Shown here in pieces: positions 9,757 to 31,960 of a stretch of 50,667 nt of DNA. A model generated the notes under the pieces. That model did not search any database and had not been told where the DNA came from. It saw nothing but the letters and a program-made list of their open reading frames with translations. The position numbers were made by a program, and so were the translations under genes. The stretch is from NCBI GenBank assembly GCA_002701845.1, contig NZXG01000068.1, positions 1-50,667 of the forward strand. Direction: 5' to 3'. This DNA comes from Pseudomonadales bacterium (lineage in GTDB: Bacteria; Pseudomonadota; Gammaproteobacteria; Pseudomonadales; Ketobacteraceae). How positions within the stretch are numbered: position 1 is the stretch's first letter; the number at the start of each line of letters is the position of its first letter.

Positions 9757-9796
9757 ATACATTTACGCGATTTTTTTGATTTGAGTCAACAAAACT

Positions 9797-9901: not shown

Positions 9902-9932
9902 TTGAGCTGTGTGCAGGACATAGGTGTATAAC
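9902..9932 (+). promoter_or_regulatory. MerR-type promoter 1, upstream of AMP phosphorylase operon
   Basis: TTGAGC (9902-9907) and TATAAC (9927-9932) are separated by exactly 19 bp. This over-long spacer is characteristic of MerR-activated promoters. The spacer holds the dyad AGCTGTGT-GCAGG-ACATAGGT. It matches promoter 2 at 31930 in all but a few positions. The start of transcription is expected near 9939, about 90 nt before the ATG at 10030. Confidence 0.8.
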
Positions 9933-10029
9933 CTCGTTCCATACCTTGATTTTACGGAATCAGGGACACTCCCTTCAATCAATAGTCTAAAACGACAGGC
10001 AGCTTGTGGCGCCAAGTAAGGATTGGTCA

Positions 10030-11538
10030 ATGAGATATGGGAATACGCTAAAAGTATTGGATATCGGCATCGACACCCATCAAGAGCCGATAGTGTATAT
10101 GCGCGCCGATTGCAATATTTGCCGCTCTGAAGGCTTTACGGCTAACAGCCGTGTCTTGCTGATCTACAACACGAATCGAGTGATCGCCACGATCAATGTC
10201 GTGGATGAAAAGGTACTGGCACCGGGTAGCGCAGGGCTGTCTAAAATCGCCATGGAGCGATTGGGTGTTGCCACGGGGGACTCGATCAGCGTTAGCTATG
10301 CGCCGGTGGTGAACTCATTGGGCGCGGTGCGCAAAAAAATCTTCGGTCATAAACTCTCTGACAAAGAAATCGGGGCGGTTATCAAAGATATCAGCGCCCA
10401 TCGCTACACGGATATCGAAATCGCCAGCTTTCTCAGTGTATGTGCGGGGAGCCGCCTGGATGTTGATGAAATAATCGCCTTGACTCAGGCCATGGTTGCC
10501 TGTGGTAAACGCTTAACCTGGCCAGGCACTGCCATGGTGCTGGACAAGCATTGCATTGGCGGATTGCCGGGAAATCGTACCACGCCGCTGGTAGTCTCCA
10601 TGGTCAGCGCTGCCGGGTTAACCATACCGAAAACATCGTCGCGCGCCATCACCTCACCGGCAGGGACTGCCGACACCATGGAGTCTTTGACCAACGTCAA
10701 TCTGGATCTCGCCAGGATTCAAGAGGTGGTCGCCGAAACACACGCCTGCCTTGTCTGGGGCGGGGCGGTGAATCTCAGTCCTGCCGATGATCTTTTGATT
10801 CGCATAGAACGCGCTCTGGATCTGGACGGCGAAGGCCAGTTAATTGCCTCTGTGCTTTCCAAAAAGATAGCCGCGGGTTCGACTCACGCCGTCATTGATA
10901 TTCCTAAAGGTCCTACTGCTAAAGTCCGAACCCACAAAGATGCCGAGCGACTTGCATCATTATTTACTCAGGTTGGAGCTGCCTGTGGCGTACACATCCG
11001 CTGTTTAATTACCGATGGCATACAGCCTGTTGGCGAAGGCATTGGCCCTGTGGAAGAGGCGAGGGATGTATTGGCGGTATTGCAACGAGCAGATACCGCA
11101 CCCAAGGACCTGCGCGAGCGAGCGCTTATAATTGCGGCGCAATTGTTTTCAATGGCCGACGACATTTCCTATCCGCGAGGGCTGATCAAGGCGACCGATA
11201 TCCTTGATAGCGGTAAAGCCTGGACGCAGTTTCAGCGCATTATGAAAGCACAAGGCGGCTTGAAACCATTGCCCGAGGCCTACTATCAACACACCGAAAC
11301 CGCAAGAACAACCGGAGTATTGCAGGGCATTGATAATCGTCGGCTCGCCAGGTTAGCAAAACTGGCGGGCGCACCGGCCACTGCTGCGGCGGGATTGCGA
11401 TTACATAAGCGTGTTGGCGAAACGATACACGAAGGAGACGCCTTATTTACGCTGTATAGCGATACCGAGGGTGAGCGGCAATATGCGCTTGCGTATTATC
11501 AGCAGACGGATATTTTTTCCATTGGGGAAACATCATGA
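10030..11538 (+). CDS. AMP phosphorylase / thymidine phosphorylase family protein
   Basis: A 502-residue enzyme read from the ATG at 10030 (RBS AAGGA); a GTG at 10006 is less likely. It matches AMP phosphorylases: KHCIGGLPGNRTTPL (phosphate and ribose site), IPKTSSRAITSPAGTADTME, ACLVWGGAVNLSPADD, GEGQLIASVLSKKIAAGSTH and PVGEGIGPVEEARDVL. It carries the N-terminal extension (about 1-85) found in AMP phosphorylases and absent from ordinary DeoA. The known reaction is AMP + Pi to adenine + ribose 1,5-bisphosphate. No R15P isomerase or RuBisCO is present here, so the archaeal pentose route is not indicated. It overlaps the PRPP synthetase gene by ATGA, which points to salvage of the ribose phosphate. 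Substrate choice is inferred. Confidence 0.85.
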   Translation: MRYGNTLKVLDIGIDTHQEPIVYMRADCNICRSEGFTANSRVLLIYNTNRVIATINVVDEKVLAPGSAGLSKIAMERLGVATGDSISVSYAPVVNSLGAVRKKIFGHKLSDKEIGAVIKDISAHRYTDIEIASFLSVCAGSRLDVDEIIALTQAMVACGKRLTWPGTAMVLDKHCIGGLPGNRTTPLVVSMVSAAGLTIPKTSSRAITSPAGTADTMESLTNVNLDLARIQEVVAETHACLVWGGAVNLSPADDLLIRIERALDLDGEGQLIASVLSKKIAAGSTHAVIDIPKGPTAKVRTHKDAERLASLFTQVGAACGVHIRCLITDGIQPVGEGIGPVEEARDVLAVLQRADTAPKDLRERALIIAAQLFSMADDISYPRGLIKATDILDSGKAWTQFQRIMKAQGGLKPLPEAYYQHTETARTTGVLQGIDNRRLARLAKLAGAPATAAAGLRLHKRVGETIHEGDALFTLYSDTEGERQYALAYYQQTDIFSIGETS

Positions 11539-12464
11539 ATGATTCGCAAAAAAAGACATTTGATCATTGGCCGCTTATATTTGACCTGGTTAGTCACCCC
11601 TTGACCGATTCATTGGGTCGAGCCATCGGAGCGTACCCAGGTGAGCTTGATACCCGCCAATTTCCTGATGGCGAATCTTACTTGCGAATACTATCTGATT
11701 TGGAAGGTCGCCCTTGTATTGTCGTTGCTGATCTGTCAAACCCTGACCCCAAGTTTTTACCCTTACTGTTCTTACTGGAAACACTGCGAGAACTCGGTGC
11801 CTCGCAAGTAGGATTGATCGTACCTTATCTGAGTTACATGCGCCAGGATCGGCGTTTTGTCGAAGGAGAAGCGCTCACTTCGCGAATTTTTGCCCAGGCA
11901 CTTTCAAAGCATATCGATTGGCTGGTAACTGTCGACCCTCATCTGCATCGCTACCACTCACTGGATGAGATTTATTCCGTACCAAACCGCGTGGTGCAAG
12001 GGGCGCCAGCCTTGGCGCAATGGCTGAAGACGCAAAACAACCTGTTACTGGTGGGGCCAGATAGTGAAAGTGAGCAGTGGGTGTCGAATATCGCCGCTTT
12101 CAGTCAACACCCCTACGTGATTGGAGAAAAGCAACGCTACGGTGATCGCCATGTGGAGGTGACGCTTCCTGATATTGAAAAATATCAGGAACGAGCTGCC
12201 GTTATTATTGATGATGTCATCTCAAGCGGCCAGACCATTCTCGAATGTATAAAAACCCTCAGATCCAAGGGAATAGGCAACATTCAATGCGTGGCCATTC
12301 ACGGTATTTTTGCGGGCGACTCTGATCAAGCACTGTATGAGGCTGGTTTGAATCAACTGGTAACCACCAATACCGTTCGTCACTCATCAAATGCCATTGA
12401 TATAACACCACAGCTAATTCCGCCCGTCATCAGCTTACTAAAATCATCTGGATTGCGATCATGA
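11535..12464 (+). CDS. Ribose-phosphate pyrophosphokinase (PRPP synthetase) family protein
   Basis: A 309-residue protein of the PRPP synthetase family. Visible motifs: PYLSYMRQDRRFVEGEAL (flexible ATP loop), VTVDPHLHRYHSL (metal and ribose-5-phosphate region) and the PRPP loop VIIDDVISSGQTI. The usual reaction is ribose 5-phosphate + ATP to PRPP + AMP. It is divergent from housekeeping Prs and is coupled by 4-nt overlaps to AMP phosphorylase before it and the beta-CASP nuclease after it. The three may convert AMP or RNA-derived nucleotides into bases and PRPP. Whether it accepts ribose 1,5-bisphosphate is an open question. Confidence 0.88.
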   Translation: MNDSQKKTFDHWPLIFDLVSHPLTDSLGRAIGAYPGELDTRQFPDGESYLRILSDLEGRPCIVVADLSNPDPKFLPLLFLLETLRELGASQVGLIVPYLSYMRQDRRFVEGEALTSRIFAQALSKHIDWLVTVDPHLHRYHSLDEIYSVPNRVVQGAPALAQWLKTQNNLLLVGPDSESEQWVSNIAAFSQHPYVIGEKQRYGDRHVEVTLPDIEKYQERAAVIIDDVISSGQTILECIKTLRSKGIGNIQCVAIHGIFAGDSDQALYEAGLNQLVTTNTVRHSSNAIDITPQLIPPVISLLKSSGLRS

Positions 12465-13816
12465 AAATTACTTTTCTAGGCGGCACTGAAACAGTCACGG
12501 GATCGAAATATTTACTGGAAACAGACAGAACCTCAGTGCTGGTGGATTGTGGCCTGTACCAGGGATATAAGTGGTTACGCGAGCGAAACTGGCAATCGTT
12601 GCCACTGGATATCACCACGTTGGATGCAGTTTTGCTCACTCATGGGCACCTGGATCACTCTGGTTACATACCTGCCTTGTATAAACGCGGTTTTCGTGGC
12701 CCGGTGTATACCCATCACGCCAGCAAAGCCCTGTGCCAAATATTGCTGGCTGATAGCGGTCATCTTCAGGAGGAAGATGCCAAATACTACAGTAAACATA
12801 AGCTAAGCAAGCACAAGCGACCGGAACCACTTTACGACCGTCAAACCGCTGAATCAAGCATGGCGCTGTTTCGGGGAATTAACTTTGACGAACTGATTGA
12901 CCTGGGTGATATTCGCTTTTATCTGCAACCGGCGGGGCACATCTTGGGTGCGGCAAGCATTATTGTTGAAGCAGAAGGTAAGCGTGTTGGTTTTTCTGGG
13001 GATGTGGGGCGTTTCGATGATGTACTGATGCTCCCGCCGCGCCCCCTACCGGAGCTTGACCTGTTGCTGATGGAGTCCACCTACGGTAACCGACCGCATG
13101 CTCCTCACGATGCCGCACAGCAATTGGCGGCAATCGTAAACCGAACAGCAAAGATAGGTGGTGTGTTGCTCGTGCCGGCTTTCGCTGTCGGTAGGGCGCA
13201 GGCTTTACAGCACCTGCTGGCAAACCTTATGGATATGGGTACCATTCCGAAGCTCCCCATCTATCTCGACAGCCCGATGGCTATCAAGGTAGCGGACGTT
13301 TTTTGTAGATTCAGCGACCAACACCGCTTAAATCACGACCAATGCCACCGCATGTGTGATCTGGTGACCTATACCCGTACAGTGGATGAATCCAAGGCTC
13401 TGGCGGGTCAGTCTTTTCCCCACGTCATTATTGCAGGCAGCGGTATGGCCACCGGCGGTCGTATTCTTCATCACTTTAAACGGCTACTTAGCGATAGCAA
13501 AACAACCGTATTATTTACCGGCCATCAAGCCGGTGGTACTCGCGGAGCGAAAATGATAGCCGGTGCGGATGCTGTAAAAATACATGGCGGCTGGATCCCT
13601 GTGAGGGCAAAAGTCGATGTAATTTCCGGCCTCTCTGGACATGCGGATTATCTAGAATTAACCGAATGGTTGTTTCAATCCAAATTACCCAAAAAGACGC
13701 CAATAAAGCTGATTCATGGCGATCCAGAGGCGCTGGACGGATTGCGCATGTATTTACAGGGACACACTGAATTCCACGTAAGCGTGGCCGGTTATCGCGA
13801 TATCCTGCGACTTTAA
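12461..13816 (+). CDS. Metallo-beta-lactamase/beta-CASP RNA nuclease
   Basis: A 451-residue MBL-fold protein of the beta-CASP (CPSF/YSH1-like) group. Zinc motifs: LTHGHLDHSGYIP (HxHxDH), PAGHILGAAS, FSGDVGR and the late SGLSGHADYLEL. The beta-CASP block contains LVPAFAVGRAQALQHLL and IYLDSPMAIKV, and GSGMATGGRILHHF is the RMM-type ending. Family members cut or degrade RNA from the 5' side or internally. The start overlaps the PRPP synthetase stop by ATGA. With AMP phosphorylase, a path from RNA through AMP to adenine and PRPP can be proposed, but this is inference from gene order. Confidence 0.9.
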   Translation: MKITFLGGTETVTGSKYLLETDRTSVLVDCGLYQGYKWLRERNWQSLPLDITTLDAVLLTHGHLDHSGYIPALYKRGFRGPVYTHHASKALCQILLADSGHLQEEDAKYYSKHKLSKHKRPEPLYDRQTAESSMALFRGINFDELIDLGDIRFYLQPAGHILGAASIIVEAEGKRVGFSGDVGRFDDVLMLPPRPLPELDLLLMESTYGNRPHAPHDAAQQLAAIVNRTAKIGGVLLVPAFAVGRAQALQHLLANLMDMGTIPKLPIYLDSPMAIKVADVFCRFSDQHRLNHDQCHRMCDLVTYTRTVDESKALAGQSFPHVIIAGSGMATGGRILHHFKRLLSDSKTTVLFTGHQAGGTRGAKMIAGADAVKIHGGWIPVRAKVDVISGLSGHADYLELTEWLFQSKLPKKTPIKLIHGDPEALDGLRMYLQGHTEFHVSVAGYRDILRL

Positions 13817-13937
13817 TTAAACAATCAGCACCATCAGATGAAAAACCAAGTACCACCAGCGGCTCATTTCCACAACACCGCTTGTGATGAAGGCAGCGGT
13901 CAACACCGACAATCAAACAAGACAGGAGTGGATTTAT

Positions 13938-14198
13938 ATGAAACTGCATGAAGTCAAATTTGGTACAGCCTGCGCAATCACCGCAGCACTGCTCTGGGTT
14001 CTTTGTACCATTCTCGTGTTGGCGATGCCGTCGTTAATGCTTTCCTTGACCGGGGCTATGGTGCATATGCAGTTGCAGGATATGGGATGGCACCTGAATC
14101 TGGCAGGCGCGCTTCTCGGGTTGCTGGCATGGGTGTTAGCGGCTGGTTTCTCCGGGTGGTTGCTTGCCAGTGTTTATAACCGGTTGCTGAATCGATAA
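13938..14198 (+). CDS. Small membrane protein, DUF5676-like
   Basis: An 86-residue protein with two hydrophobic helices (about 9-35 and 50-78) and a short basic end (NRLLNR). The ATG at 13938 has the RBS AGGAG; the frame is open back to 13884 without a ribosome site. The pattern resembles DUF5676 membrane proteins, which occur beside stress and metal genes and have no known function. It stands between the nuclease and the hflKC genes in the same direction. The DUF assignment is by recollection of the pattern and is moderate. Confidence 0.65.
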   Translation: MKLHEVKFGTACAITAALLWVLCTILVLAMPSLMLSLTGAMVHMQLQDMGWHLNLAGALLGLLAWVLAAGFSGWLLASVYNRLLNR

Positions 14199-14208
14199 AG
14201 GTAGGTAC

Positions 14209-14334
14209 ATGAACGATGTCAATGAACGCCAGCGTCGGTTTCTGATTGGCGCTACTTCATTTTTGATTATTCCTCGGCATCAGTACCTTGATAACCACGT
14301 ATTGGAGATTGGCACCGATGCTTCAACTAATTAA
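14209..14334 (+). CDS. Tiny ORF, possible gene remnant
   Basis: A 41-codon frame with an ATG at 14209 preceded by AAAGGTAGG. The product begins MNDVNERQRRFLIGATSFLI and has one short hydrophobic stretch. I recognise no family. Given the damaged genes just downstream, it may be the start of a lost membrane-protein gene. The spacing and RBS allow translation, but nothing else supports it. Confidence 0.3.
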   Translation: MNDVNERQRRFLIGATSFLIIPRHQYLDNHVLEIGTDASTN

Positions 14335-14385
14335 GGCCGCCTGCTACAAGTACGATAGCGAAAGCACGCCCAAAAGGAGATATAC

Positions 14386-15366
14386 ATGAATGATAATACT
14401 CACCCATCTTTACCGGATATACCGGCTACGCCTCGTCAGATTGCGCTTGGTTTGATAGTCGTGCTCGCCGTTTATCTGGGATTTAGTAGCTATTACACAG
14501 TGTCGGCGGAATCTGTTGGTATTGTTCAGCGTTTCGGACACTATCACTATGTCGTTGATCCGGGTTTACATTTCAAAATTCCATTTGGCGTTGATCAGAT
14601 AACGCAGGTACCCGTAAAACGCCAGTTAAAAGAAGAATTTGGCTTTGGCACACCGGGCGCGACATTCAAACAACAGATGTCAGACCCTCGGGAATGGCGA
14701 CTGGAAACCATCATGGTCACCGGCGATTTGAACACTGCTTTAGTAGAGTGGGTTATTCAGTTCCGTATCGAAGACGCATTTGATTTTCTGTTTAAAGTAC
14801 GCGATCCCGGTGATGCGCTGAGGGATATTTCTGAGTCGGTGATGCGTGAAGTGGTGGGTGATCGCACAGTGGATGAGGTGCTCACCATTGGTCGTCAGGA
14901 TATTGAAGCCAATGCGCAATCAAAAATGCAGGAAGTGGTGAACATGTATGAGATGGGACTTCGCATAGATCAGGTTCAGCTAAAAAATGTCAACCCGCCA
15001 CAGCCTGTCCAGGCGTCGTTTGACGAAGTCAATGAAGCTCAACAAGAGCGGGAGCGCATGATAAACGTGGCACGCGGTGAATACAATAAAGCCGTACCCC
15101 GTGCCAAGGGTACCGCGGAACGTACCATTCAGGCTGCGCAAGGTTACGCCATTCAGCGTGTCAATCAGGCGGAAGGCGATGCAGCAAAATTCAATGCGCT
15201 GCTGGCGGAATACATTAAGGCTCCTGATGTAACACGTCGCCGCCTTTACCTGGAAACCATGCAGGAAGTGATGCCTGTGGTAAAAAATAAAATCGTTCTC
15301 GATGATAAGGCGGCATCGGTGCTGCCTTTACTCCAGCTCAACAGCATGCAAGGAGGTACTCAATGA
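14386..15366 (+). CDS. hflK: SPFH/band 7 protein, HflK-like
   Basis: A 326-residue membrane protein with a single N-terminal helix (about 17-37), then an SPFH domain (SAESVGIVQRFGHYHYVVDP, GLHFKIPFGVDQ, VQLKNVNPPQPVQASFDEVN) and a long helical tail. It lacks the Gly-rich N-terminus of E. coli HflK. HflK and HflC form a membrane cage that controls the FtsH protease. The start has a strong RBS (AAAAGGAGA). It overlaps hflC by ATGA. The FtsH partner downstream is broken, so this pair may act on another FtsH encoded elsewhere or have its own role. Confidence 0.88.
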   Translation: MNDNTHPSLPDIPATPRQIALGLIVVLAVYLGFSSYYTVSAESVGIVQRFGHYHYVVDPGLHFKIPFGVDQITQVPVKRQLKEEFGFGTPGATFKQQMSDPREWRLETIMVTGDLNTALVEWVIQFRIEDAFDFLFKVRDPGDALRDISESVMREVVGDRTVDEVLTIGRQDIEANAQSKMQEVVNMYEMGLRIDQVQLKNVNPPQPVQASFDEVNEAQQERERMINVARGEYNKAVPRAKGTAERTIQAAQGYAIQRVNQAEGDAAKFNALLAEYIKAPDVTRRRLYLETMQEVMPVVKNKIVLDDKAASVLPLLQLNSMQGGTQ

Positions 15367-16319
15367 ACCGTGGTATCTATATCGCACTGGCGATTCTTTT
15401 TCCCTCGCTGATTGTCGTTTATGAGGCCTTCTATACCGTTAATGAAACCGAGCAGGTAATCATTACCCAGTTTGGTAAGCCGGTTGGCAATATTGTCGAG
15501 GAAGCTGGCTTGAAGCTTAAGATACCCTTTATCCAGGAAGTTAACAGGATCGAAAAGCGTATTTTGCTGTGGGATGGTTCAGCGAACGACATGCCAACCA
15601 AAGACAAACTTTATATCACCGTTGATACCTTTGGGCGATGGCGAATCAAGGATCCCTTGCAGTATTTTTTGCGTCTGCGTGATGAACGAAGTGCACAGTC
15701 ACGACTTGAAGACATCCTGGGAAGTGAAACGCGGAATGCCGTTGCCAAACATGAGCTGATCGAAATTGTTCGTAGCACGAAAGGTAGATCGCCTGCTATC
15801 GATCCGCTGTTAAAGAAGGCGGATGTAGGTAAATTACTTCCTATAACGCGGGGTCGCCGACAAATCGAAGAGGATATTTTGGCTGCAGCGTCGGTGAAAT
15901 TGTCCGAGTTCGGAATTGAATTACTGGACATTCGCTTCAAGCGGATCAATTACAACGAAAGCGTCAGGCAAAAGATATACGCGCGAATGATCAGCGAACG
16001 TCAGCAAATCGCCGAACGATTCCGATCCGAGGGGGCAGGGGAGGCTGCCAAGATTATCGGTAATAAAGAGCGGGATTTACAGCGCATAGAGTCAGAAGCT
16101 TATCGAGAAATCCAGTCAATTCAGGGCGTGGCCGATGCCAAGGCCACCGATATTTACTCTGCCGCTTACAATCGGTCACAAGCAGCACGTGAACTTTATG
16201 ATCTGGTCAAAACACTGGAAACCTATAAAAAAGTGATCGATCCGTCAACGACACTGGTGCTGACAACGGAAAGCGAGCTCTATCGGTTGATGAACGGTGT
16301 CAATCAGCCCCGAAAATGA
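15363..16319 (+). CDS. hflC: SPFH/band 7 protein, HflC-like
   Basis: A 318-residue protein with an N-terminal membrane helix (about 4-24), an SPFH domain (NETEQVIITQFGKPVGNIVE, AGLKLKIPFIQEVNRIEKRI, DTFGRWRIKDPLQYFLRLRD) and the HflC block LSEFGIELLDIRFKRINYNE followed by the ARMISERQQIAERFRSEGAG helix. It pairs with the preceding HflK and, in known systems, regulates FtsH at the inner membrane. Length and motifs are complete, so unlike ftsH it has not decayed. Confidence 0.9.
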   Translation: MNRGIYIALAILFPSLIVVYEAFYTVNETEQVIITQFGKPVGNIVEEAGLKLKIPFIQEVNRIEKRILLWDGSANDMPTKDKLYITVDTFGRWRIKDPLQYFLRLRDERSAQSRLEDILGSETRNAVAKHELIEIVRSTKGRSPAIDPLLKKADVGKLLPITRGRRQIEEDILAAASVKLSEFGIELLDIRFKRINYNESVRQKIYARMISERQQIAERFRSEGAGEAAKIIGNKERDLQRIESEAYREIQSIQGVADAKATDIYSAAYNRSQAARELYDLVKTLETYKKVIDPSTTLVLTTESELYRLMNGVNQPRK

Positions 16320-16420
16320 TAAGCCCCTGGAAACATAATGCTTGTTGCTTGCGCACGGCCAACGAGTTCATCCAAGGGGTGTAAACCTACTGCAACGAGG
16401 TGAACGCTGAGGAAAAAGAT

Positions 16421-16942
16421 ATGGACAGAGAAAAGCAATTAAACCTCGTGTATTTGTTTGTTGCGATATGGGGGGTTGTGCTCTTTCAAAGCTTCCTGGG
16501 CCATACCACGCGTCAGGTTGAGCTTAGTTATAATGAATTTGAGCGCTACCTGGAACAGGGGTGGCTTAAAGATCTTGCGGAAAAGCTGGCACCCTATAAC
16601 GTGAACTATAAAGGCGTTATCACTGGTGGCCCCTTGGCAACATTGATCGGCTGGTTTGCGGCTTTGGTATTCTTTCTGGTGTGGTTTCTGCTGTTTCGCA
16701 AAAGCCGGCTGGGCGCCCGTATCCCCAAAGGTATACTGTTGGTGGGCCGCCCGGATAAAGCCGGTCGGGAACAGATTTTGCGCGTGCATTTGAAGAAAAT
16801 TCAGGCCGATGAAGCCGTCAGTATCTCAGCGGTAGCATCGCTTACAACCGGGTTTAGCGGTGCGTTTCAGATCGGATCCAGAAGGCAGCATTCTCGCGTT
16901 ATCGCTCAACGGAGGACGCTTGATCTACCAGCATTCCAATAA
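16421..16942 (+). pseudogene. ftsH: FtsH protease remnant lacking ATPase core and protease domain
   Basis: The ATG at 16421 has the RBS GAGG. The N-terminus (LVYLFVAIWGVVLFQSFLGH) and second membrane helix (GWFAALVFFLVWFLLF) look like FtsH. The frame then jumps in phase: LFRKS joins RLGARIPKGILLVG, and that joins RPDKAGREQILRVHLKK. Comparison with intact FtsH shows that the linker, the Walker A, Walker B and SRH region are missing. Similarity ends at LTTGFSGA (about 16862), so the zinc protease domain is gone as well. At least two of the deletions keep the frame. The rest overlaps the start of the HtrA-like gene. No ATPase or protease activity is possible. Confidence 0.88.
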
Positions 16943-17776
16943 GGTGTCACTTGTCTATGTTCTCATCGGCTTGGTAACCGTATTCTGGTTAGGGGCTTGC
17001 TGGCAAGACTGGCTGAGCCATCGTGACCTGGAATACCGGCCGGTAACGGCTCGCGGTGAACTGGGAGCGGAAGAGCAGAATACGATTGAAGTGTTCCAAC
17101 AGGCTCGGGCATCCGTCGTGTTTATTACGACGCTATCTCAAATCGTCAATCCCTGGAGTCGAAGCGTGTTCAGCGTGCCGGCGGGCACGGGCTCCGGCTT
17201 GTTATGGGATGCCAAAGGCCATATCGTTACCAACTACCATGTTATCCAGCGCGCCAGCGGTGCCCAAATCCGATTGACTGATGATCGCACCTTTAATGCG
17301 ACGCTGGTCGGCGTTAGCCCGGAACATGACCTGGCAGTGCTGCGTGTACAGTCTACTTTGGGGCACCAGCACCCATTCCATTGGGCAGCAGTAGCGATTT
17401 AAAGGTAGGCCAAAAAGTCTACGCCATTGGCAATCCGTTCGGTCTTGATTATACGCTAACCACCGGCATTGTTTCCGCCCTTGACCGCAGCATCGGCGAA
17501 ACCAGCGGACAGACCATTCGTGGTGTGATTCAGACGGATGCTGCCATCAACCCAGGCAATTCGGGCGGCCCGTTATTGGACAGTGCCGGCCGGCTGATTG
17601 GTATTAATACCGCCATTTATTCCCCTTCAGGAGCGAGCGCCGGAATAGGCTTTGCCGTGCCGGTGGATACCATCGCCAGCGTTGTGCCACGACTGATACA
17701 TGAGGGTCGTTACGGACTGCCTGACCTTGGTAGTAAACTGGATTTGGATGATGGCACGATTCAGGAGTTGCAGTGA
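16920..17776 (+). pseudogene. HtrA/DegP-like S1C serine protease, frameshifted, no PDZ
   Basis: Frame one runs to 17402 and frame two from about 17380 to 17776. Together they give a membrane anchor (VYVLIGLVTVFWLGACW), the protease block with His in HIVTNYHVIQ, Asp in [11 protein letters not shown] and Ser in [20 protein letters not shown]. Loss of one C near 17376-17379 breaks the frame: restoring it turns the bases there into the family-like [20 protein letters not shown]. The start is taken as a TTG at 16920 with GGAGG before it; the frame is open to 16860. The C-terminal PDZ domain is missing and the end ([17 protein letters not shown]) looks like a deletion junction. The gene probably no longer makes a full protease. 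Confidence 0.85.
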
Positions 17777-24007: not shown

Positions 24008-24045
24008 ACCGTCGATGAAATAGCCAAAACATATATGAGTGCCCA

Positions 24046-25122
24046 ATGAGAAAAATAATGATACTCGGTGGTTATGGTGCCGTTGGCAAACACATAGCCA
24101 CAGAGCTGGCGAAAATCTACCCGAATCAGATTATCGTGGCCGGTAGAAATGGGGAAAAAGCATCTTCCTTGGCAAGCGCACTGAATAACACAGTGATTCC
24201 TCTTGCGTTTGACCTAGATACATTGTCAGAGAATGACGCCAGACTGAATGATGTGGCGATCCTTATTATGTGCATTGAAGCTCGTAATGCACCAACAGCC
24301 AAGCAATGTGCGCAGAGAGGCATACATTATCTCGACACCTCTGCCAGCTATGATTATTTGAAAGAGATTGAGCGCTTGCATAACAGTGCTGAAAAGGGTT
24401 GCGCTACCTTTTTACTCAGCGCAGGGATCGTGCCCGGCTTAAGTAATCTGTTAGTAAAACATTGTGTGAATACGTGCGGCAACCGAGGCGTTGCGGAAAT
24501 ATATGTATTACTGGGGTTGGGGGAAGCGCATGGCGAAGCGGCTATTCATTGGTCGATTGAGCAAATGAATGCCGAATATGTGGATAGCCTCGGGAATCGT
24601 ACGAAAAGCTTTGCGAACGCAAAGCAGACTGCTTTCCCCGGAGACCGCTTTGCTCGAAATGCCTACCAGTTTAATTTCTCTGACCAGCACGTGCTTCCCC
24701 ACACATTATCGATCAGTTCAGCCACCACAAGACTGTGTTTTGAATCGCGCTTCATCACTGCGCTATTTTATTTCATGAGCGCTAGCGGGATAGGAAAAGT
24801 ATTGAAGCTGCCGTTCGCCCGTAATGCAATGACATATTGCCTGCAAAAGTTCCGTTTTGGTACCGATCGTTTTTCTGTAAAGGTGGTTTATCGGCAACAA
24901 GCCACAGATGGTGCGACGTTTAGCTGTTCAATAACAGGCCATGAAGAAGCAAGAATCACGGGTATTACCACCGCATTACTCGCCCATCAAATGATGAAGA
25001 CTGACTACCCCCATGGGGTTTTCCACATAGAACAGTTATTCGAACCTATGAAAATAATTAATGATCTGAATCAACATGGCATTCAATTCGAGCAAACCAA
25101 TATGCGGTTTGGTAATGATTAA
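24046..25122 (+). CDS. Saccharopine dehydrogenase-like NAD(P)-binding protein
   Basis: A 358-residue protein with an N-terminal Rossmann motif (KIMILGGYGAVGKHIATEL), then IIVAGRNGEKASSLASALN and HYLDTSASYDYLKEIERLHN. These are typical of saccharopine dehydrogenase NADP-binding domains. The substrate cannot be told from sequence. It begins 38 bp after the cardiolipin synthase and appears to be the last gene of the rightward series. The 147-bp gap after it holds a weak inverted repeat (CATACCT / AGGTATG). Confidence 0.82.
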   Translation: MRKIMILGGYGAVGKHIATELAKIYPNQIIVAGRNGEKASSLASALNNTVIPLAFDLDTLSENDARLNDVAILIMCIEARNAPTAKQCAQRGIHYLDTSASYDYLKEIERLHNSAEKGCATFLLSAGIVPGLSNLLVKHCVNTCGNRGVAEIYVLLGLGEAHGEAAIHWSIEQMNAEYVDSLGNRTKSFANAKQTAFPGDRFARNAYQFNFSDQHVLPHTLSISSATTRLCFESRFITALFYFMSASGIGKVLKLPFARNAMTYCLQKFRFGTDRFSVKVVYRQQATDGATFSCSITGHEEARITGITTALLAHQMMKTDYPHGVFHIEQLFEPMKIINDLNQHGIQFEQTNMRFGND

Positions 25123-25269
25123 ATCATACCTTATGCTATTTTACCCTTACCTTAGGTATGTACTGGCTCAGGTTTAAACCATGGCGTGTCACGAAAAGGC
25201 GCAAGATTCAATTGAACTCTCGTTGATGTTTGGTAGTCTTAATAGATACAGGCGCACAGGACACATATT

Positions 25270-25653
25270 GTGGAAACAATGTATTCGGCAACCAGAAAAC
25301 TAGTGATAGTCGGTTTGCTTTTTATAAGCAGCAATGCACTATCGATAACCGTTGATCACACCTATGTGAATCATTTGTCTGTGCCTGTTCACATCCTCCA
25401 TCACACTTCCAAATCTGATAAACAGGTCGCGACAACGCTTAATAGTAAACGCTGTCACGAAGCTGTAAGACCACGTTTGTGCAGATGTGATAATTGTAAT
25501 GATTGTGAACTGTTCCATTGCGCAACCGCTCCCACCATTACTTCGGTAATGCTGATCTATCAGGCGATACCGCGATCCCAAACCTATAGTTTTGATTGCT
25601 CTGGTATTGCGGCAGCGCATTCCTTGCCACCCTATAAACCACCGATCGCGTGA
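25270..25653 (+). CDS. Secreted Cys-rich small protein, paralogue-like to the one at 2660
   Basis: A 127-residue protein with a GTG start at 25270 (AGGA 8 nt upstream); ATG at 25279 is an alternative. It has a signal peptide (KLVIVGLLFISSNALS), His residues in the middle, a Cys cluster (RLCRCDNCNDCELFHC) and the ending LPPYKPPIA. The architecture matches the first gene of the cus operon, which also ends in PPIA. A periplasmic metal-binding role is inferred. Its stop codon is inside a 47-bp perfect palindrome. No cop box or MerR box was seen upstream. Confidence 0.6.
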   Translation: METMYSATRKLVIVGLLFISSNALSITVDHTYVNHLSVPVHILHHTSKSDKQVATTLNSKRCHEAVRPRLCRCDNCNDCELFHCATAPTITSVMLIYQAIPRSQTYSFDCSGIAAAHSLPPYKPPIA

Positions 25654-25693
25654 CATTGTGACAATCAATTATTGATTGTCACAATGTCACGCG
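25647..25693. repeat. 47-bp perfect inverted repeat (23-bp arms, 1-bp centre)
   Basis: The left arm 25647-25669 starts CGCGTGACATTGTGACAATC and the right arm 25671-25693 is its exact reverse complement, around a T at 25670. It contains the stop codon of the Cys-rich gene. Each arm holds two TGTGACA-like half-sites. No T-run follows, so it is not a classical terminator. It may be an RNA hairpin that protects the 3' end, an operator, or a cruciform site. Confidence 0.85.
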
Positions 25694-25815
25694 CTGGCCT
25701 CAGTTATAGCGTGTTGTACATATTAGTGATATTGGTGTCGCCCCAAACACATATTGTGCTTGTGACACCTGAGATTCAATATGAAGACTATAAAGATTAT
25801 ATTTTGGAGATAACC

Positions 25816-26172
25816 ATGAAAAACATCGCGATTAACATCATTCTGGTATTGATGGCATACTTGACTGTTTCCACGAATTCTTATGCCGATGATCCATTGA
25901 AAGAGCAGATGCAGGCGCAGCGATCAGCATTGAAAGCTTTTGAAGGTAGCCCAAACCTGTCAGCAGCGAAGTTTGCCGCATTGGAAAAGAGCATTGCACT
26001 CATCAAGAAACGCCAACAGGAGAAGAGAGAAGAGAATATTGCCTGTCTTGAGGCTGAAAAGAACCTGCCAACGGACATAGAAACATGCTTTGAAGTGGAA
26101 TCAACCGACGATGCGCAACTCAGCTTGCTGGTGTTGGCGGTTGAACAGTTAGTCCAGGCGCAGCAACAGTAG
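25816..26172 (+). CDS. Small periplasmic helical protein
   Basis: A 118-residue protein read from the ATG at 25816, preceded by TTGGAGA. The frame is open back to 25672 without support. It has a signal peptide (MKNIAINIILVLMAYLTVST, cleaved near NSYA) and a helical, charged body with a KSIALIKKRQQEKREEN helix. Two Cys (in IACLEAE and ETCFEVE) could form a disulfide. I recognise no family. A strong hairpin follows. Confidence 0.6.
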   Translation: MKNIAINIILVLMAYLTVSTNSYADDPLKEQMQAQRSALKAFEGSPNLSAAKFAALEKSIALIKKRQQEKREENIACLEAEKNLPTDIETCFEVESTDDAQLSLLVLAVEQLVQAQQQ

Positions 26173-26187
26173 GCGAATGGGGTAGCT

Positions 26188-26222
26188 CCCCTCTATAGTT
26201 ACAATTGCTTGCTATAGAGGGG
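26188..26222. terminator. Hairpin between convergent genes
   Basis: An 11-bp perfect stem, CCCCTCTATAG (26188-26198) and CTATAGAGGGG (26212-26222), with a 13-nt loop. It lies between the end of the rightward small protein and the end of the leftward EamA gene. No clear T-run is present, but position and stem fit a terminator shared by both strands. Confidence 0.6.
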
Positions 26223-26257
26223 TAAACTCACAAGTAGTTGTACATGGCTGGTTGGTC

Positions 26258-27151
26258 TTAGTCTGCCATTGTGTGTTTCGAGCCAAGTGGTTGATTCGTC
26301 GTTGTAGCGACCAGTATAATAGAGGCAATAATCAGACCGATACCAGCCCACTGGTTGAATGAAAATGATTCAGAAAAATAGGTATACCCAATTGTTAGCC
26401 CGAAAACCGGCGTTAAAAAACTGAAAACGTTGAGCTTGTAAAGGGGAGCCTTGTCCATTAGCCAAAACCACAAAATCAAAGGTAGCGCAGTCCCCGGCAG
26501 AGCCAGGATAAACAACACCCACAGGAATTCACCAGACCAATGTGCCGACTGTTGATCCTGAATTAAAGTCAACAGCCCTAATGGAATAGAGCCCAACACT
26601 AACTGGAACCCCATGGCGTAAAGTATATCGATTTTGTTGACCACCAGTTTTAGTAAAATATTGCCAATGGTAACCCCAAGCGCTGCCAACAAAATGTAGG
26701 CAATGCCTAGCAGAGAATGTCCTGTCCCTAGTAATGTATCCACGCTAATCACAACGATGCCAGAAAAACCAAGTATAGCACCCACTACGGCTGGCTTGTT
26801 CATTCTCTCGTTAAGAACATACCACCCCAGAACGGCAGCAATCAGTGGCTGTGTATTCGATATCACGGTGGCTAAACCTGGGGCAACGAGTGTACCGGCA
26901 TAAAACATACCCCAAAAACCTAAACTGGTGGCTGTGAGCCCAATCGCCAGAATATACACAAAGTCTCTCAGCGTTTTCGGCACTGGACGTTTAAACAGAA
27001 CGGCCACGACGATTAAGAGGATGCCAGCAAAAACAGCACGTAGGGTCGCGGTTAGCATAATCGGCGCATAGGGCTCGCTTAACGTTATCATAGGATAACA
27101 AATCGCCCAGCCCAACATGACCATTGAGGCTCCCAACCCAGTCAGTTTCAA
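26258..27151 (-). CDS. EamA/DMT family transporter
   Basis: A 297-residue membrane protein with about ten helices, arranged as two EamA repeats. The first holds FWGMFYAGTLVAPGLATVIS and NTQPLIAAVLGWYVLNERMN; the second holds FWLMDKAPLYKLNVFSFLTP and GLTIGYTYFSESFS. The start is a TTG at 27151 with GAGGGAG in front. Members export amino acids or other metabolites; the substrate is unknown. It is encoded alone, with about 100 bp to the next gene, and no copper-type site was seen upstream. Confidence 0.88.
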   Translation of the reverse strand: MKLTGLGASMVMLGWAICYPMITLSEPYAPIMLTATLRAVFAGILLIVVAVLFKRPVPKTLRDFVYILAIGLTATSLGFWGMFYAGTLVAPGLATVISNTQPLIAAVLGWYVLNERMNKPAVVGAILGFSGIVVISVDTLLGTGHSLLGIAYILLAALGVTIGNILLKLVVNKIDILYAMGFQLVLGSIPLGLLTLIQDQQSAHWSGEFLWVLFILALPGTALPLILWFWLMDKAPLYKLNVFSFLTPVFGLTIGYTYFSESFSFNQWAGIGLIIASIILVATTTNQPLGSKHTMAD

Positions 27152-27250
27152 TGCCTACTCCCTCTTAAACTTTTGGTTCGAGATTTCCATAGATATTCAA
27201 TATGAAAAGCAGATATAAAGGGTACGGATTCAAGCCTCATCGTTTTTTGG

Positions 27251-27868
27251 CTACGCCCACAGATTGAGTGAAAAGTGTTTCATGATACCCGTCAGTATAT
27301 CACTACGTGTCAATATACCGTGCAATGTACCACTATCTACGATGGGCATGGCACCAATACGACGCTCAACAAAAAGACGTGCAATATATCGGGCATCTGT
27401 ATCCGGGCTGGCCGTTAGCACCTCCCGTTTCATGATGTTCACAATCGATAGGTCGGGGCTTGGTGATTTTTTGGGTGGTAAGTCCATGCCCGATAAAAAG
27501 TGTAGTGCATCACGATCGGATAATATGCCAGTGATAATCTGATTATTCCCGAGTACAGGCAAATGACGAAAGCCAAAACGTTTGAATAGATTGAGCGCAT
27601 CCTGAATAGAATTCCGCGTGCTGACCGTGATCACAGGCGAAGACATTAACTGCTTAGCCGCGATCAATGATTGCCCTTCAGTCAGCTTGTCAATGCGTGC
27701 GTATACCTGCCGGGAGTGACCTCGCTGATAAGATTGGGGCGGCACTACATCAGGGCCAGTCGGGCGCAATTTGCTGATTTTTTCCGCTGCTTGTAATTGA
27801 GGTTGTTTGAATAATTTCTCAAGTGGCCAGTGATCGGGGCCGCTCATACTATATACGGTAAAAGTCAC
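27251..27868 (-). CDS. CBS-pair domain protein
   Basis: A 205-residue protein with an N-terminal region of about 65 residues and two CBS domains (MSSPVITVSTRNSIQDALNL to about residue 125 and MKREVLTASPDTDARYIARL to about 195). CBS pairs bind adenine nucleotides such as AMP and ATP and sense energy state. The start is a GTG at 27868, overlapping the pflA stop by GTGA. Its place behind pflA suggests energy-dependent control of pyruvate formate-lyase or its activation, which is inference. Confidence 0.85.
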   Translation of the reverse strand: MTFTVYSMSGPDHWPLEKLFKQPQLQAAEKISKLRPTGPDVVPPQSYQRGHSRQVYARIDKLTEGQSLIAAKQLMSSPVITVSTRNSIQDALNLFKRFGFRHLPVLGNNQIITGILSDRDALHFLSGMDLPPKKSPSPDLSIVNIMKREVLTASPDTDARYIARLFVERRIGAMPIVDSGTLHGILTRSDILTGIMKHFSLNLWA

Positions 27869-28704
27869 TTTAAAAAGCCCGACGTTTTCGTCTGTTTGCT
27901 GAAAGTATCGTTTGATGGCTGGCTAACCTCCAGATGATAGCTTTCAAGCACATCAGCAATCTCTATAACGGTTTCGGAAGCGGGTGGTTTAACGCCTGTG
28001 AGTTCATAATGCTCGCCCAAAGCAGCCCATTTATATTCACCTAATGCATGATAGGGTAAAAGCTCAACTTTCTCGACGTTTTTCATCGGACTCAGGAATC
28101 GTCCTAACGCATGCGCCGATTCTAAATCCGTCGTATATCCTTCAACGATTACATACCGAACCCATACCGGTTTTCCGCGCTCTGCAAGGTATTCTGCAAA
28201 TGCCAGTGTGGGCTTGTTGCTCATTTTAGTCAGTTGTAAATGGCGCTGGTTTTCCATTTGCTTGATATCCAGTAAGACCAGATCGGTATAACGGATTAAT
28301 TCATGAATCGGCTCTGTCAAGTGAGCCGCATAACCATTGGTATCCAGGCAGGTATGAATACCGTAGCGAAAGCATTCCTTAAACAGCTCCTTCAAGAACT
28401 CCGCTTGCAGTAAAGGCTCACCGCCAGACACTGTTACGCCACCACCACTGAACTTAAAGTAGGCTTGATACTCCAATACAATGCGCATTATATCTTGAAC
28501 GGTTTGTTGTTTTCCGCCATGCAGATCCCATGTATCCGGGTTTTGGCAGTATTTGCATCGCCACAAACAGCCCTGCATGAATATCACTAATCGTATGCCC
28601 GGGCCATCCACTGTGCCGAAGGATTCGAGCGAATGTATGTGTCCGTAAAGAGTGGATACTGCGTTTTTACTTGTCTGATTAGAATGATGCTGTTCTAAAG
28701 CCAT
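27865..28704 (-). CDS. pflA: Pyruvate formate-lyase activating enzyme
   Basis: A 279-residue radical SAM protein read from the ATG at 28704; a GTG at 28707 is possible. The cluster motif CLWRCKYCQNPDTWDLHGG (CxxxCxxC) binds the 4Fe-4S centre. FKFSGGGVTVSGGEPLLQ is the SAM-binding block, and DLVLLDIKQ follows. It has an N-terminal extension of about 20 residues relative to E. coli PflA. It makes the glycyl radical on PflB by hydrogen abstraction and is oxygen-sensitive. The gene overlaps or abuts the pflB stop. Confidence 0.94.
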   Translation of the reverse strand: MALEQHHSNQTSKNAVSTLYGHIHSLESFGTVDGPGIRLVIFMQGCLWRCKYCQNPDTWDLHGGKQQTVQDIMRIVLEYQAYFKFSGGGVTVSGGEPLLQAEFLKELFKECFRYGIHTCLDTNGYAAHLTEPIHELIRYTDLVLLDIKQMENQRHLQLTKMSNKPTLAFAEYLAERGKPVWVRYVIVEGYTTDLESAHALGRFLSPMKNVEKVELLPYHALGEYKWAALGEHYELTGVKPPASETVIEIADVLESYHLEVSQPSNDTFSKQTKTSGFLK

Positions 28705-28706
28705 CA

Positions 28707-30998
28707 CTATAGTGACTCGCTAAAAGTGCGCGCGATCACCTCGCGCTGCTGCTCTTTGGTTAATGCATTGAACCGAACGGCATAGCCTGACACGCGGATG
28801 GTTAATTGAGGATAAAGGTGTGGGTTGTCCATGGCATCAATGAGCGTTTCCCGGTTCAATACATTGATGTTGATGTGTTGGCCTCCTTCTTGTTTTTTAT
28901 CGTTATAAAAATACCCATCTAACAAACTGATGAGATTGGTGGTTCGCGCCTGACTATTCGGCCCCAGTGCATTAGGCACAATGGAGAAGGTATAGGAAAT
29001 GCCGTCTTGTGCGGAGCTGAAAGGCAGCTTGGCAACAGAGGTTAGCGACGCCAGCGCTCCATGGTCATCACGACCGTGCATGGGATTAGCACCAGGTGCA
29101 AAGGGCTGACCTTTGCGCCTTCCATCGGGGGTATTACCGGTTTTTTGGCCATACACAATGTTAGATGTAATGGTCAATATAGATTGGGTCGGAACTGAAT
29201 TCCGATAGGCTTTTTGCTGCCGGAGCTTATCCATAAAGAGCACCACCAAATCCCGGGCTATGGTATCGGCCCGAGGATCGTTGTTACCGAACGCGGGGTA
29301 CTCTCCTTCAACCTCAAAATCAATAGCCAAGCCTGTTTCATTGCGGATCGGTTTCACGCTGGCGAAACGAATTGCCGAGAGAGAATCCGCGGTTACTGAT
29401 AACCCCGCAATCCCGCAGGCCATCGTGCGATAGACATCTCTGTCATGAAGCGCCATTTGCACAGCTTCATAACAATATTTGTCGTGCATGTAATGAATAC
29501 AGTTCAGCGCGGTGATATATTCTCTGGCTAACCAGTCCATCTGCTGATCCAGTCGCTGCATTACGTCATCAAAGACCAGCGTATCGCTTCTGATAGGCGG
29601 CTTTAATGGCGCTACCTGCAAGTTAAGCTGCTCATCCACTCCACCGTTAATCGCGTAGAGTAACGTTTTTGCCAGATTGGCTCTGGCGCCAAAAAACTGC
29701 ATTTGTTTACCGATCACCATCGGACTGACACAGCAGGCGATACCATAATCATCGCTACCGAGCTGTTCTCTCATGAGATCGTCGTTTTCGTACTGAATAG
29801 AGCTGGATTGAATCGATACTTCGGCACAAAAACGTTTAAAGGTATCAGGGAGACGCTGCGACCAAAGCACGGTAATATTGGGCTCCGGACTCGGCCCCAT
29901 AGTGCCCAGCGTGTGTATGAACCGAAAGCTGGTTTTGGTTACCAGTGGCCGCCCATCCAGGCCCATGCCGCCAATGGATTCGGTCGCCCAGACCGGGTCA
30001 CCGGAAAATAGCTGATCATAGTCCGGGGTTCGAAGGAAACGAATCATGCGCAATTTCATGACAAAATGATCAATGATTTCCTGAGCTTCCTTTTCAGTGA
30101 TCAACCCGTTCTTTAAATCCCTTTCGATGTATATATCAATAAAGGTTGTAATCCGGCCAAGCGACATAGCCGCACCATTTTGACTTTTTATAGCCGCCAA
30201 ATAGGCAAAGTATGTCCATTGTATCGCTTGCTGAGCGTCCTTAGCCGGGCGACTGATATCGAAACCATAAGAAGCCGCCATCACTTTCATTTGCGTTAAC
30301 GCTCGCGCTTGTTCTGCAATTTCCTCGCGTAGCTGAATAATCTCATTAAGGTGCTTCCCGTTAGCCAAGTCGGCATCCAGACTTACATGCTGGTTGCGTT
30401 TATCTGCCTGAAGGCGATCAACACCATAGAGAGCCACACGCCGATAATCACCGATAATTCGCCCGCGACCGTAGGCGTCTGGCAAACCGGTAATGATACC
30501 GGATTTACGGCACAAACGAACCGATGCCGGATAGACGTCAAACACACCTTGATTGTGCGTTTTCCGGTATTCGCTAAAGATGGTTCTTATATTCCCATCA
30601 AGTGGTTTTCCATAGGTGTTGCATGCCGATTCTACAATGCGAATACCGCCATTGGGTAACAAAGCGCGTTTAAATGGTTGGTCGGTTTGAAGGCCTACGA
30701 TCTTTTCCAGTGATTGATCGATATATCCGGCCGAATGGGACGTAATCGATGCGACAACTTCGTTATCGAAATCTAACGGTCCGTGTCGATTGTTTTCCTC
30801 AATTATTTTTGACGAAACTCTGCTCCACAGCTCAATTGTCGCTGGCGTAGCGTTTTCAAGAAATCCGTTATCCCCAGTATAAGGAATATAGTTGCGTTGA
30901 ATAAAGTCGCGTACATCAATATGCGTAGACCAGGGGCCATCCAAAAAACCTTTCCAGGCGCTGGATTCTACATCGGCGCTGTTCGATGGTTTTGCCAT
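28707..30998 (-). CDS. pflB: Pyruvate formate-lyase (formate C-acetyltransferase)
   Basis: A 763-residue glycyl radical enzyme of E. coli PflB length. The catalytic pair is in [14 protein letters not shown] (about residue 420) and the radical Gly is Gly738 in [12 protein letters not shown]. The N-terminal start [20 protein letters not shown] and the [20 protein letters not shown] stretch are typical. It converts pyruvate + CoA to acetyl-CoA + formate without oxygen. The gene is preceded by AGAAGG. It lies in a unit with DUF2934 upstream and pflA and the CBS protein downstream, and the unit starts behind a MerR-type promoter. The linkage to metal stress is unusual. Confidence 0.96.
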
Positions 30999-31108
30999 TG
31001 ATAGAATACCTTCTGGTTGCAGTCGGATGGGTCCTTCCTGGCCTTGAATTTACACGTTACAGCTATTTTAAACCCGTATAATGACCAATACATCTAAGAC
31101 GACTGCAT

Positions 31109-31345
31109 TTACTTTTCAGAAAGTTGCGAATTTATTTCCGTTTCAGCTTCCAGCCAATCCATTAATTTTTCTTCATCACAGCCACAAAACTGGCGCTTTT
31201 CCGCTTTGTAGTAAGCTGCCTCAGCAATCATTTGTGCCTTTTTACTGTCAGTAATAGTAGCATCATTGAGCTCGTTGTGGGCTGCTGTCGTTTTACTGAT
31301 TTCGTTTTGTGTGGTTTTTTTAGATTTGTTTTTTGAGGCAGACAT
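31109..31345 (-). CDS. DUF2934 family small protein
   Basis: A 78-residue protein with a charged, low-complexity N-terminal half (MSASKNKSKKTTQNEISK) and a C-terminal DUF2934 block (MIAEAAYYKAEKRQFCGCDE, then DWLEAETEIN). RBS is AAGGA. DUF2934 proteins are small and of unknown function. The CGC pair within the block is not usual as far as I recall. It is the first gene after MerR-type promoter 3, about 110 bp before pflB, with no terminator visible in between. Confidence 0.78.
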   Translation of the reverse strand: MSASKNKSKKTTQNEISKTTAAHNELNDATITDSKKAQMIAEAAYYKAEKRQFCGCDEEKLMDWLEAETEINSQLSEK

Positions 31346-31395
31346 TTACGGTTCCTTTTGAATGTAGTCACTGTTTTATTCTGATCTGTGTGGTG

Positions 31396-31426
31396 ATCGT
31401 ACACCTATGCCCAGGACCTATGTCAA
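31396..31426 (-). promoter_or_regulatory. MerR-type promoter 3, upstream of DUF2934-pfl unit
   Basis: Read on the minus strand, TTGACA (31426-31421) and TACGAT (31401-31396) are separated by exactly 19 bp. The spacer ends in GCATAGGTG, matching promoters 1 and 2 (ACATAGGTG). The left half-site is less conserved (ATAGGTCC versus CTATGTGC). Transcription would begin near 31389, about 45 nt before the DUF2934 start. Confidence 0.7.
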
Positions 31427-31752
31427 CACAACGAACATCTACCTCTATGAGGAAAAAGTTAACCAGGTGACGACAATCCAGGGTATTTGCTCTGAAGCTA
31501 AACCGATCCGTTGAGATCATTCGATAAGCGCTATCACAGCTCGCCGCGTAACCGTGCGCTACTTTCTGATTTTGCTTCCTGTTGCCAGTTATAGCAGGGA
31601 ACTATTTGTTTCTCAAAATATGTTTCTCAATATAATCGTCGATGCATTGCATTGTTTTTTTGAGTGTCGCTGTTGTCGATGTTTGGTAAAGGATGTGAGT
31701 GGGGCTGCGCACCGCCAACTTTATTGACGCAAATTAAAAGAATGAGCCATAG

Positions 31753-31768
31753 ATTACAGATCTGTAAT
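31753..31768. promoter_or_regulatory. CopR/CusR-type palindrome C
   Basis: ATTACAGATCTGTAAT is a perfect 16-bp palindrome followed by GTTGGCGTAA, as in copies A, B and D. It lies about 170 bp before the MerR-type promoter of merR-copA and about 330 bp upstream of the minus-strand promoter 3. The plus-strand unit is the more likely target. Confidence 0.7.
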
Positions 31769-31929
31769 GTTGGCGTAATTTGGGTGACAGCGAGGCTTAT
31801 TTACAATGATGATTGACAGGAAAGGTGTCACTTGCCCCTTAGGCACTTGATTGAATCTGCCTTATCGCTTTAAACATCCAGGATTCAGGAGCAACTGACG
31901 AAGTCTGGCAATGTGTTTATGCAAGGTGC

Positions 31930-31960
31930 TTGACCTATGTGCGGGACATAGGTGTAGGGT
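31930..31960 (+). promoter_or_regulatory. MerR-type promoter 2, upstream of merR-copA unit
   Basis: TTGACC (31930-31935) and TAGGGT (31955-31960) are 19 bp apart. The spacer contains the perfect dyad ACCTATGT-GCGGG-ACATAGGT (31933-31953). This is the standard layout of a MerR-activated promoter. It is the best of the three copies and probably autoregulatory for merR at 32049. Confidence 0.85.

Follow-up and report, generated by a model that had tools for sequence, protein, structure and literature searches.

Organization of the locus and its three promoters

In a 50,667-nucleotide stretch of DNA from a Pseudomonadales bacterium, which was analyzed in its full length and is called the window below, three gene units stand behind promoters of the MerR type. 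Unit 1 starts with merR (at 32049) and a gene for a Cu-type P1B ATPase, unit 2 encodes an adenosine monophosphate (AMP)-phosphorylase-like protein (AMPP), a phosphoribosyl pyrophosphate (PRPP) synthetase (PRS) and an MBL-fold protein, and unit 3 contains the pyruvate formate-lyase (PFL) genes pflB and pflA together with genes for a DUF2934 and a CBS-domain protein. We consider it fairly probable that the window carries a copper-resistance island in which one MerR regulon covers units 1 and 2 and probably unit 3. The promoters and genes concerned are the following:

9902..9932, plus strand: MerR-type promoter/operator 1, TTGAGC-N19-TATAAC (pattern matches and shuffle tests)
10030..11538, plus strand: AMPP, thymidine phosphorylase family (PRK04350 above cutoff; best PDB sequence matches 4ga5/4ga4)
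11535..12464, plus strand: PRS, ribose-phosphate diphosphokinase (PRK07199 above cutoff)
12461..13816, plus strand: MBL-fold beta-CASP protein (MBL)
27251..27868, minus strand: CBS-domain protein, overlaps pflA
27865..28707, minus strand: pflA, PFL-activating radical SAM enzyme (CLWRCKYC)
28707..30998, minus strand: pflB, formate C-acetyltransferase (profile model, motifs)
31109..31345, minus strand: small DUF2934 protein, first gene of unit 3
31426 to 31396, minus strand: MerR-type promoter/operator 3, TTGACA-N19-TACGAT, imperfect arms (pattern, matrix, shuffle tests)
31930..31960, plus strand: MerR-type promoter/operator 2, TTGACC-N19-TAGGGT, arms ACCTATGT-N5-ACATAGGT (pattern matches and shuffle tests)
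32049..32459, plus strand: merR, with C77, C126 and mostly H127 conserved in its clade (profile models, alignment)
32456..35071, plus strand: P1B-type ATPase with CPC, YN and MxxSS (profile models, motifs)
35084..36048, plus strand: DUF2933 protein and isoprenylcysteine-methyltransferase-like (ICMT-like) protein, the usual followers of merR-ATPase

The three promoters were found where the original prediction had placed them, and the end sequence that it had described as common to them, CATAGGTGTA, is present in all three. The distance between the -35 and -10 elements is 19 bp at each site, within the 19-20 bp of metal-activated promoters of the MerR family. Inside the spacer an inverted repeat was observed whose arms are perfect at site 2, nearly perfect at site 1 and only partly formed at site 3. 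Site 3 departs from the clade consensus at two left-arm positions and one right-arm position and is the weakest of the three. It lies 50 nt upstream of the DUF2934 ATG and heads the DUF2934-pflB-pflA-CBS unit.

A pattern fitted to the three sites matched the window three times and gave no match in 100 shuffles. Since this pattern was fitted to the sites, a second one derived from relatives, TTGACCTNTGTNNNNGACANAGGTNTA, was used, which again gave exactly three matches in the window (with one mismatch at site 1, none at site 2 and three at site 3) and none in 100 shuffles. Moreover, a weight matrix built on 26 sites, with sites 1 and 2 included and site 3 excluded, gave site 3 a score of 28.7, whereas the best score among 200 window shuffles was 21.0. 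In the whole 4.9 Mb genome the fitted pattern (at most three mismatches) found only sites 1-3, each of them twice, as contig C6 carries the region again with 99.97% identity. The three promoters exist as described and exceed what chance would produce.

The operator and its MerR clade in related genomes

The palindrome with its 19-bp spacer, TTG-ACCTRTGT-N5-ACAYAGGT-GTA, recurs in related genomes. An order-level scan allowing at most two mismatches gave 48 matches in 37 of 390 genomes, compared with three matches of the reversed control pattern, and in a class-level sample the element was present in 12 of 369 genomes. For the downstream genes 54 match rows were counted, with the copies of the window, C6 and G004 and reverse readings of palindromes left out. 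A merR gene follows within 1.3 kb in 38 of these rows, among them the second site of G453, where MerR is only 29% identical, and a G508 match that spans 72 residues. A P1B ATPase takes the place of merR in six rows (G712 twice, G526, G448, G696, G012). As 38 of the 54 matches stand directly upstream of merR, the palindrome is most likely the operator of the MerR clade encoded at 32049. The comparative data strongly bear out the claim that the sites are MerR-type promoters.

The MerR alignment and the promoter box scan described below used 48 chosen loci, which omit G136, G161, G194, G281 and the second sites of some genomes. In the alignment (39 rows including the window, one truncated and several near-identical) C77 is conserved in 38 rows, C126 in 37 and H127 in 32. 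The operator arms differ between genomes and yet remain complementary, per position, in 26 to 37 of the 37 distinct sites, site 3 not included. Relatives of this MerR were also found on 20 plasmid records. Nine of these were opened and eight have a site scoring at least 26 before merR; the exception is an Acidovorax plasmid with a degenerate site only (19.4). On this plasmid (Acidovorax sp. T1 p1-T1) the MerR relative lies between acetate kinase and phosphoketolase genes, with PRPP synthetase-AMPP-MBL nearby. The Vibrio sp. dhg plasmid has an extra site in front of an opposite-strand gene for a P-type ATPase.

Two of the 54 rows belong to G583 (C1:63495 and 65028), where only the last 16 residues of merR remain downstream and the second site leads to a P-type ATPase. 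Judged from these remnants, G583 appears to have lost merR and kept the promoter.

Linkage of unit 2 to merR in relatives

AMPP relatives with at least 50% identity occur in 17 of the 47 genomes that have a site. Ten of them (G570, G506, G018, G533, G485, G555, G666, G649, G631, G453) carry AMPP at most 10 kb downstream of the site-bearing merR and on the same strand, two (G000, which is the genome of the window, and G004) have the detached form, and in five (G322, G431, G663, G448, G526) AMPP lies elsewhere or on another contig. At the five loci measured most gaps from merR to AMPP are below 130 bp, and each locus has at least one gap of about 140 to 480 bp; in these relatives merR to AMPP are likely read as one transcript. 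The same arrangement is seen on plasmids. In Methylophaga thalassica the order is TolC-adaptor-permease-merR-HMA-ATPase-DUF2933-ICMT-AMPP-PRS-MBL, and in M. pinxianii it is merR-HMA-AMPP-PRS-MBL with no ATPase annotated in between. Besides, a site was found in 18 of 76 genomes with AMPP but in only 19 of 314 without it.

The DNA around promoter 1 is 73% identical over about 160 bp to the cusA-merR intergenic DNA of G003 and G570. The window DNA between cusA and AMPP aligns with the cusA-merR DNA of G003, G570 and G506, and the alignment covers an FNR-like box, a copper-box-like palindrome and the operator together with the -10 region GTATAACCT. This alignment indicates that unit 2 is preceded by a copy of the old merR promoter that has survived there. 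Taken together with the gene order in relatives, it points to AMPP-PRS-MBL having been ancestrally downstream of merR, so that the make-up of the regulon would be inherited, a point which the original prediction had missed.

Gene content of the island

The merR product scored below the cutoff of every metal-specific model: CueR TIGR02044 gave 80.9 of 147.4 bits, ZntR 93.8 of 143, MerR(Hg) 86.4 of 150.85 and CadR-PbrR 76.1 of 151.45. The motif rule for P1B-1 Cu/Ag ATPases consists of CPC, YN and MxxSS, and the ATPase of unit 1 has all of them (519 CPC, 827 YN, 849 MTVSS). The motif of the metal-binding domains of such proteins is GMxCxxC; both N-terminal metal-binding domains of this ATPase read GMGSNHCAG and lack its first Cys. 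AMPP belongs to the broader subfamily PRK04350 and is below the cutoff of AMP_phos (TIGR03327; 469.4 of 535 bits). Its start is likelier the ATG at 10030 than the GTG at 10006, as read by eye. A CC pair and a glycyl-radical motif are the hallmarks of pyruvate formate-lyases, and PflB has both (CC at 422, RVSGYAV) together with a TIGR01255 score of 1209 bits (cutoff 994).

The island also encodes CopB and a CopA-type multicopper oxidase, as well as two further groups of genes:

3684..9756, plus strand: outer-membrane factor, CusB-like adaptor with CusF domain, and CusA; copper-box-like palindrome at 2564-2579 upstream
47109..49197, plus strand: CusR/CopR-like response regulator and CusS/CopS-like sensor kinase; copper-box-like palindrome at 47011-47026 upstream

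This gene setting identifies the region as a predicted copper/silver island.

Copper-box-like and FNR-like boxes

Three further elements were found near the promoters:

9776..9789, plus strand: FNR/ANR-like box TTGATTTGAGTCAA; precedes promoter 1 and aligns with the corresponding boxes in relatives
9797..9826, plus strand: palindrome around a copper-box-like core, ATTACA-N4-TGTAAT (9804-9819); can also be read on the minus strand as a terminator-like stem
31753..31768, plus strand: copper-box-like palindrome ATTACAGATCTGTAAT, flanked by the divergent promoters 2 and 3

Perfect copper-box-like palindromes (ATTACA-N4-TGTAAT) start at 2564, 9804, 31753 and 47011, and we put weight on these four, as the scan with at most two mismatches gave six matches versus 2.2 expected, a count reached in 3 of 100 shuffles. 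The corresponding FNR-box scan (at most two mismatches) gave 60 matches versus 30 expected and is uninformative by itself; only perfect boxes were counted. Across 51 promoters, namely the three of the window and those of the 48 chosen loci, a copper-box-like palindrome with at most one mismatch was present in 21, versus 8 of 1286 control stretches, and a perfect FNR-like box (the operator itself excluded) in 16, versus 23 of 1284; these contrasts are overstated, as the promoters are related and the control stretches are mostly coding DNA. Promoter 3 lacks a box of its own in its close vicinity; at 311 bp upstream there is a one-mismatch FNR-like box, followed farther away by the shared copper-box-like palindrome. 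The copper-box-like palindromes at the promoters of units 1 and 2, which may provide a CusR/CopR-type input, and the FNR-like box of unit 2 suggest a joint control by metal and low oxygen. The original prediction had mentioned neither kind of box, nor the low-oxygen regulation of the Bradyrhizobium trio described below.

Duplication and mobile surroundings

Positions 8760-50667 of the window are duplicated at 46752-4845 of contig C6 with 99.97% identity (12 mismatches in 41.9 kb). On one side the duplicated region ends inside cusA; past the window the match extends at lower identity to position 52945 of contig C31. To the right of the window this contig carries a Tn7-like module, consisting of an integrase with a TnsA-like part, a TniB-like ATPase and TniQ, which is adjoined by KfrA-like and large NERD/helicase proteins. 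At the left island edge (window 409-2550) a resolvase and a piece of a DDE transposase were found. That the three sites are transposon ends was rejected, as their flanks differ.

The related genome G004 (C1:200325 onward) has the island at 99.8-99.9% identity with all three sites, and the match begins inside cusA (window 7965). Its promoter stretches differ from those of the window in some letters while the 27-base elements are identical.

Proposed regulation and alternative explanations

MerR-family proteins activate promoters with 19-20 bp spacers through a change of DNA structure (PMC1526738). We infer that the MerR encoded at 32049, when loaded with metal, would bind the palindrome in the 19-bp-spacer promoters and distort them to start transcription, and would in this way induce merR with the Cu-type P1B ATPase, the AMPP-PRS-MBL operon and probably the DUF2934-pflB-pflA-CBS operon. 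Unit 2 would have been separated from merR by a rearrangement, after which a copy of the ancestral cusA-merR promoter remained in front of it. The direct basis of this reading is formed by the sites, the pairing of operator and merR, the synteny and the homology of promoter 1. Control of units 1 and 2 by MerR is very probable in our judgement, and control of unit 3 is only slightly favoured. Copper is the likeliest signal, judged from the gene setting.

Several observations weigh against such a regulon. As many as 58 of the 76 genomes with AMPP have no site, and AMPP is thus not bound to the system; among 50 AMPP locus records scanned, several of which overlap, only three island records have a private site at AMPP. 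No private AMPP site was found outside the island among the loci scanned, so that the split form is confined, as far as known, to G000 and to G004 with its 99.8-99.9% identical island. Neither merR nor an ATPase follows in eight of the 54 match rows (G364 first site, G112 twice, G136, G161, G194, G281, G545); together with the rows that lead to an ATPase only, they indicate that the element is used away from merR too and that some matches may be due to chance. The sensor residue C77 aligns with a Cys of two mercury-type MerR structures, and the facing residue of CueR is not Cys, so silver or a divalent metal may be the signal instead. The genome of the window, G000, also has at C38:141820 another merR of this clade with a site of its own, accompanied by a P-type ATPase and cus/cop genes; the regulator at 32049 may consequently not be the only one, and cross-talk is conceivable. 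The remaining points concern unit 3. Its site scores low (28.7) when compared with the chosen loci, 45 of 48 of which score at least 31.8. PFL homologues were found in 27 of 390 genomes (E up to 1e-150), and at the 18 foreign PFL loci scanned (of 27 foreign matches, about 1.5 kb or less on each side) there was no site. Genomes with PFL are not clearly enriched in sites either (4 of 27 versus 33 of 363), and G004 lacks window 28160-30932, that is most of pflB and much of pflA. With no site at the 18 foreign loci and no clear enrichment, PFL was rejected as a general member of the regulon. Unit 3, if real, would be a lineage-specific addition, and its weaker link builds on one site.

It is quite possible that MerR works at promoters 1 and 2 only, while site 3 is a relic or a poor site and PFL is driven otherwise, e.g. 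by an oxygen sensor. The imperfect arms, the low score and the lineage-specific occurrence of site 3 agree with a relic, as do its persistence in G004, which lost most of PFL, and the lack of such a site at all 18 PFL loci examined elsewhere. Nevertheless, its score exceeds the best of 200 shuffles, its spacer has 19 bp and a gene start follows 50 nt downstream; apart from operators, nothing above about 15 occurred in about 724 kb of neighbourhood DNA among the matches listed (scores 8-30). It is less likely that a CusRS/CopRS-like two-component system, with an FNR-like protein, is the main input and the MerR sites merely fine-tune. In its favour, perfect copper-box-like palindromes precede AMPP and merR as well as the cus genes and the gene of the response regulator, FNR-like boxes occur in 16 of the 51 promoters, and the Bradyrhizobium trio is listed as lowered in fixK2 mutants (PMC9104804). 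However, many promoters with a site have neither box, and the MerR element is the common one, in a set that was chosen by this element. Finally, the shared sites could be copies that were spread by duplication or mobile elements and have no regulatory meaning, as the genome contains the whole region twice and G004 has a nearly identical version of it. We regard this as very improbable, since the flanks of the three sites are unrelated except for the operator, the copper-box stretches and short chance matches, and since the arms vary among genomes with their complementarity kept (26 to 37 of 37 distinct sites per position).

The proposed MerR regulon accordingly retains only part of the original prediction, which had one MerR (32049) drive all three units. 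The palindrome is common to the merR-ATPase and the AMPP/PRPP-synthetase units; the PFL link, with one lineage-specific site, was not established. The conservation in relatives which it had asked for was found for the element at merR and, through operon linkage, for AMPP, while the private sites 1 and 3 recur only in the near-identical island of G004.

Rather tentatively, we suggest that a response to copper and low oxygen is run by a MerR clade that has an operator code of its own, with outputs that include AMP/PRPP turnover (AMPP, PRS and the beta-CASP MBL protein) and, in one lineage, pyruvate formate-lyase. If true, nucleotide recycling and fermentation would belong to Cu(I) tolerance under scarce oxygen. 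What is surprising is that nucleotide turnover is repeatedly connected to a metal switch. Central nucleotide-metabolism genes stand behind the same switch in several families and on plasmids. This offers a handle on the role of bacterial AMP-phosphorylase-like genes and makes it possible to test directly whether copper stress, low oxygen and nucleotide pools are linked.

Comparison with known systems

No published description of this regulon make-up was found in the open-licence PMC texts, as far as these were accessible. As a rule, MerR-type metal regulons are described as small groups of genes for transport and detoxification (available parts of Permina et al. 2006, PMC1526738). The regulons of CueR/HmrR and other MerR-family metal regulators described there resemble the proposed one in the MerR-family activator, the palindrome in a 19-bp spacer, the Cu-type P1B ATPase target and the small number of operons. 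However, the CueR signal, ACCTTCCC-5-TGGAAGGT, and the other signals listed differ from ACCTRTGT-5-ACAYAGGT, and in contrast to these regulons the targets here include nucleotide metabolism (PMC1526738).

The same gene order and a location on plasmids or islands were described for the merR-copA-cupredoxin-DUF2933-ICMT clusters of Alteromonas and other bacteria, and in Alteromonas merR and copA are copper-induced (PMC8478169). On the Alteromonas plasmid L201, merR is preceded by the operator with a score of 30.0 in our analysis. Unlike in the window, AMPP, PRPP synthetase and PFL are not reported for these clusters, and the words 'phosphorylase' and 'pyrophosphokinase' are absent from the main text (PMC8478169).

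The trio of unit 2 is also known from Bradyrhizobium diazoefficiens, where bll3117-bll3116-bll3115 encode a thymidine phosphorylase family protein, a PRPP kinase and an MBL protein (PMC9104804, PMC6515984; both in the parts available). The trio and a DUF2933-ICMT operon are tabled as FixK2-box units that are lowered in fixK2 mutants, with the boxes ATGATCTGGGTCAA and TTGATCTGCGTCAA (PMC9104804), and the same table holds phosphoketolase-acetate kinase. In the microoxia comparison the trio has positive fold values, i.e. it is microoxia-induced (PMC6515984). Unlike unit 2, the Bradyrhizobium trio is under CRP/FNR-type control, and a MerR operator is not mentioned in those parts of the two papers (PMC9104804, PMC6515984). 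The plasmids of Methylophaga pinxianii and M. thalassica differ from the window in that one promoter was found and PFL is not annotated in the stretch examined; like the island, they carry the operator and merR followed by AMPP-PRS-MBL, all on one strand.

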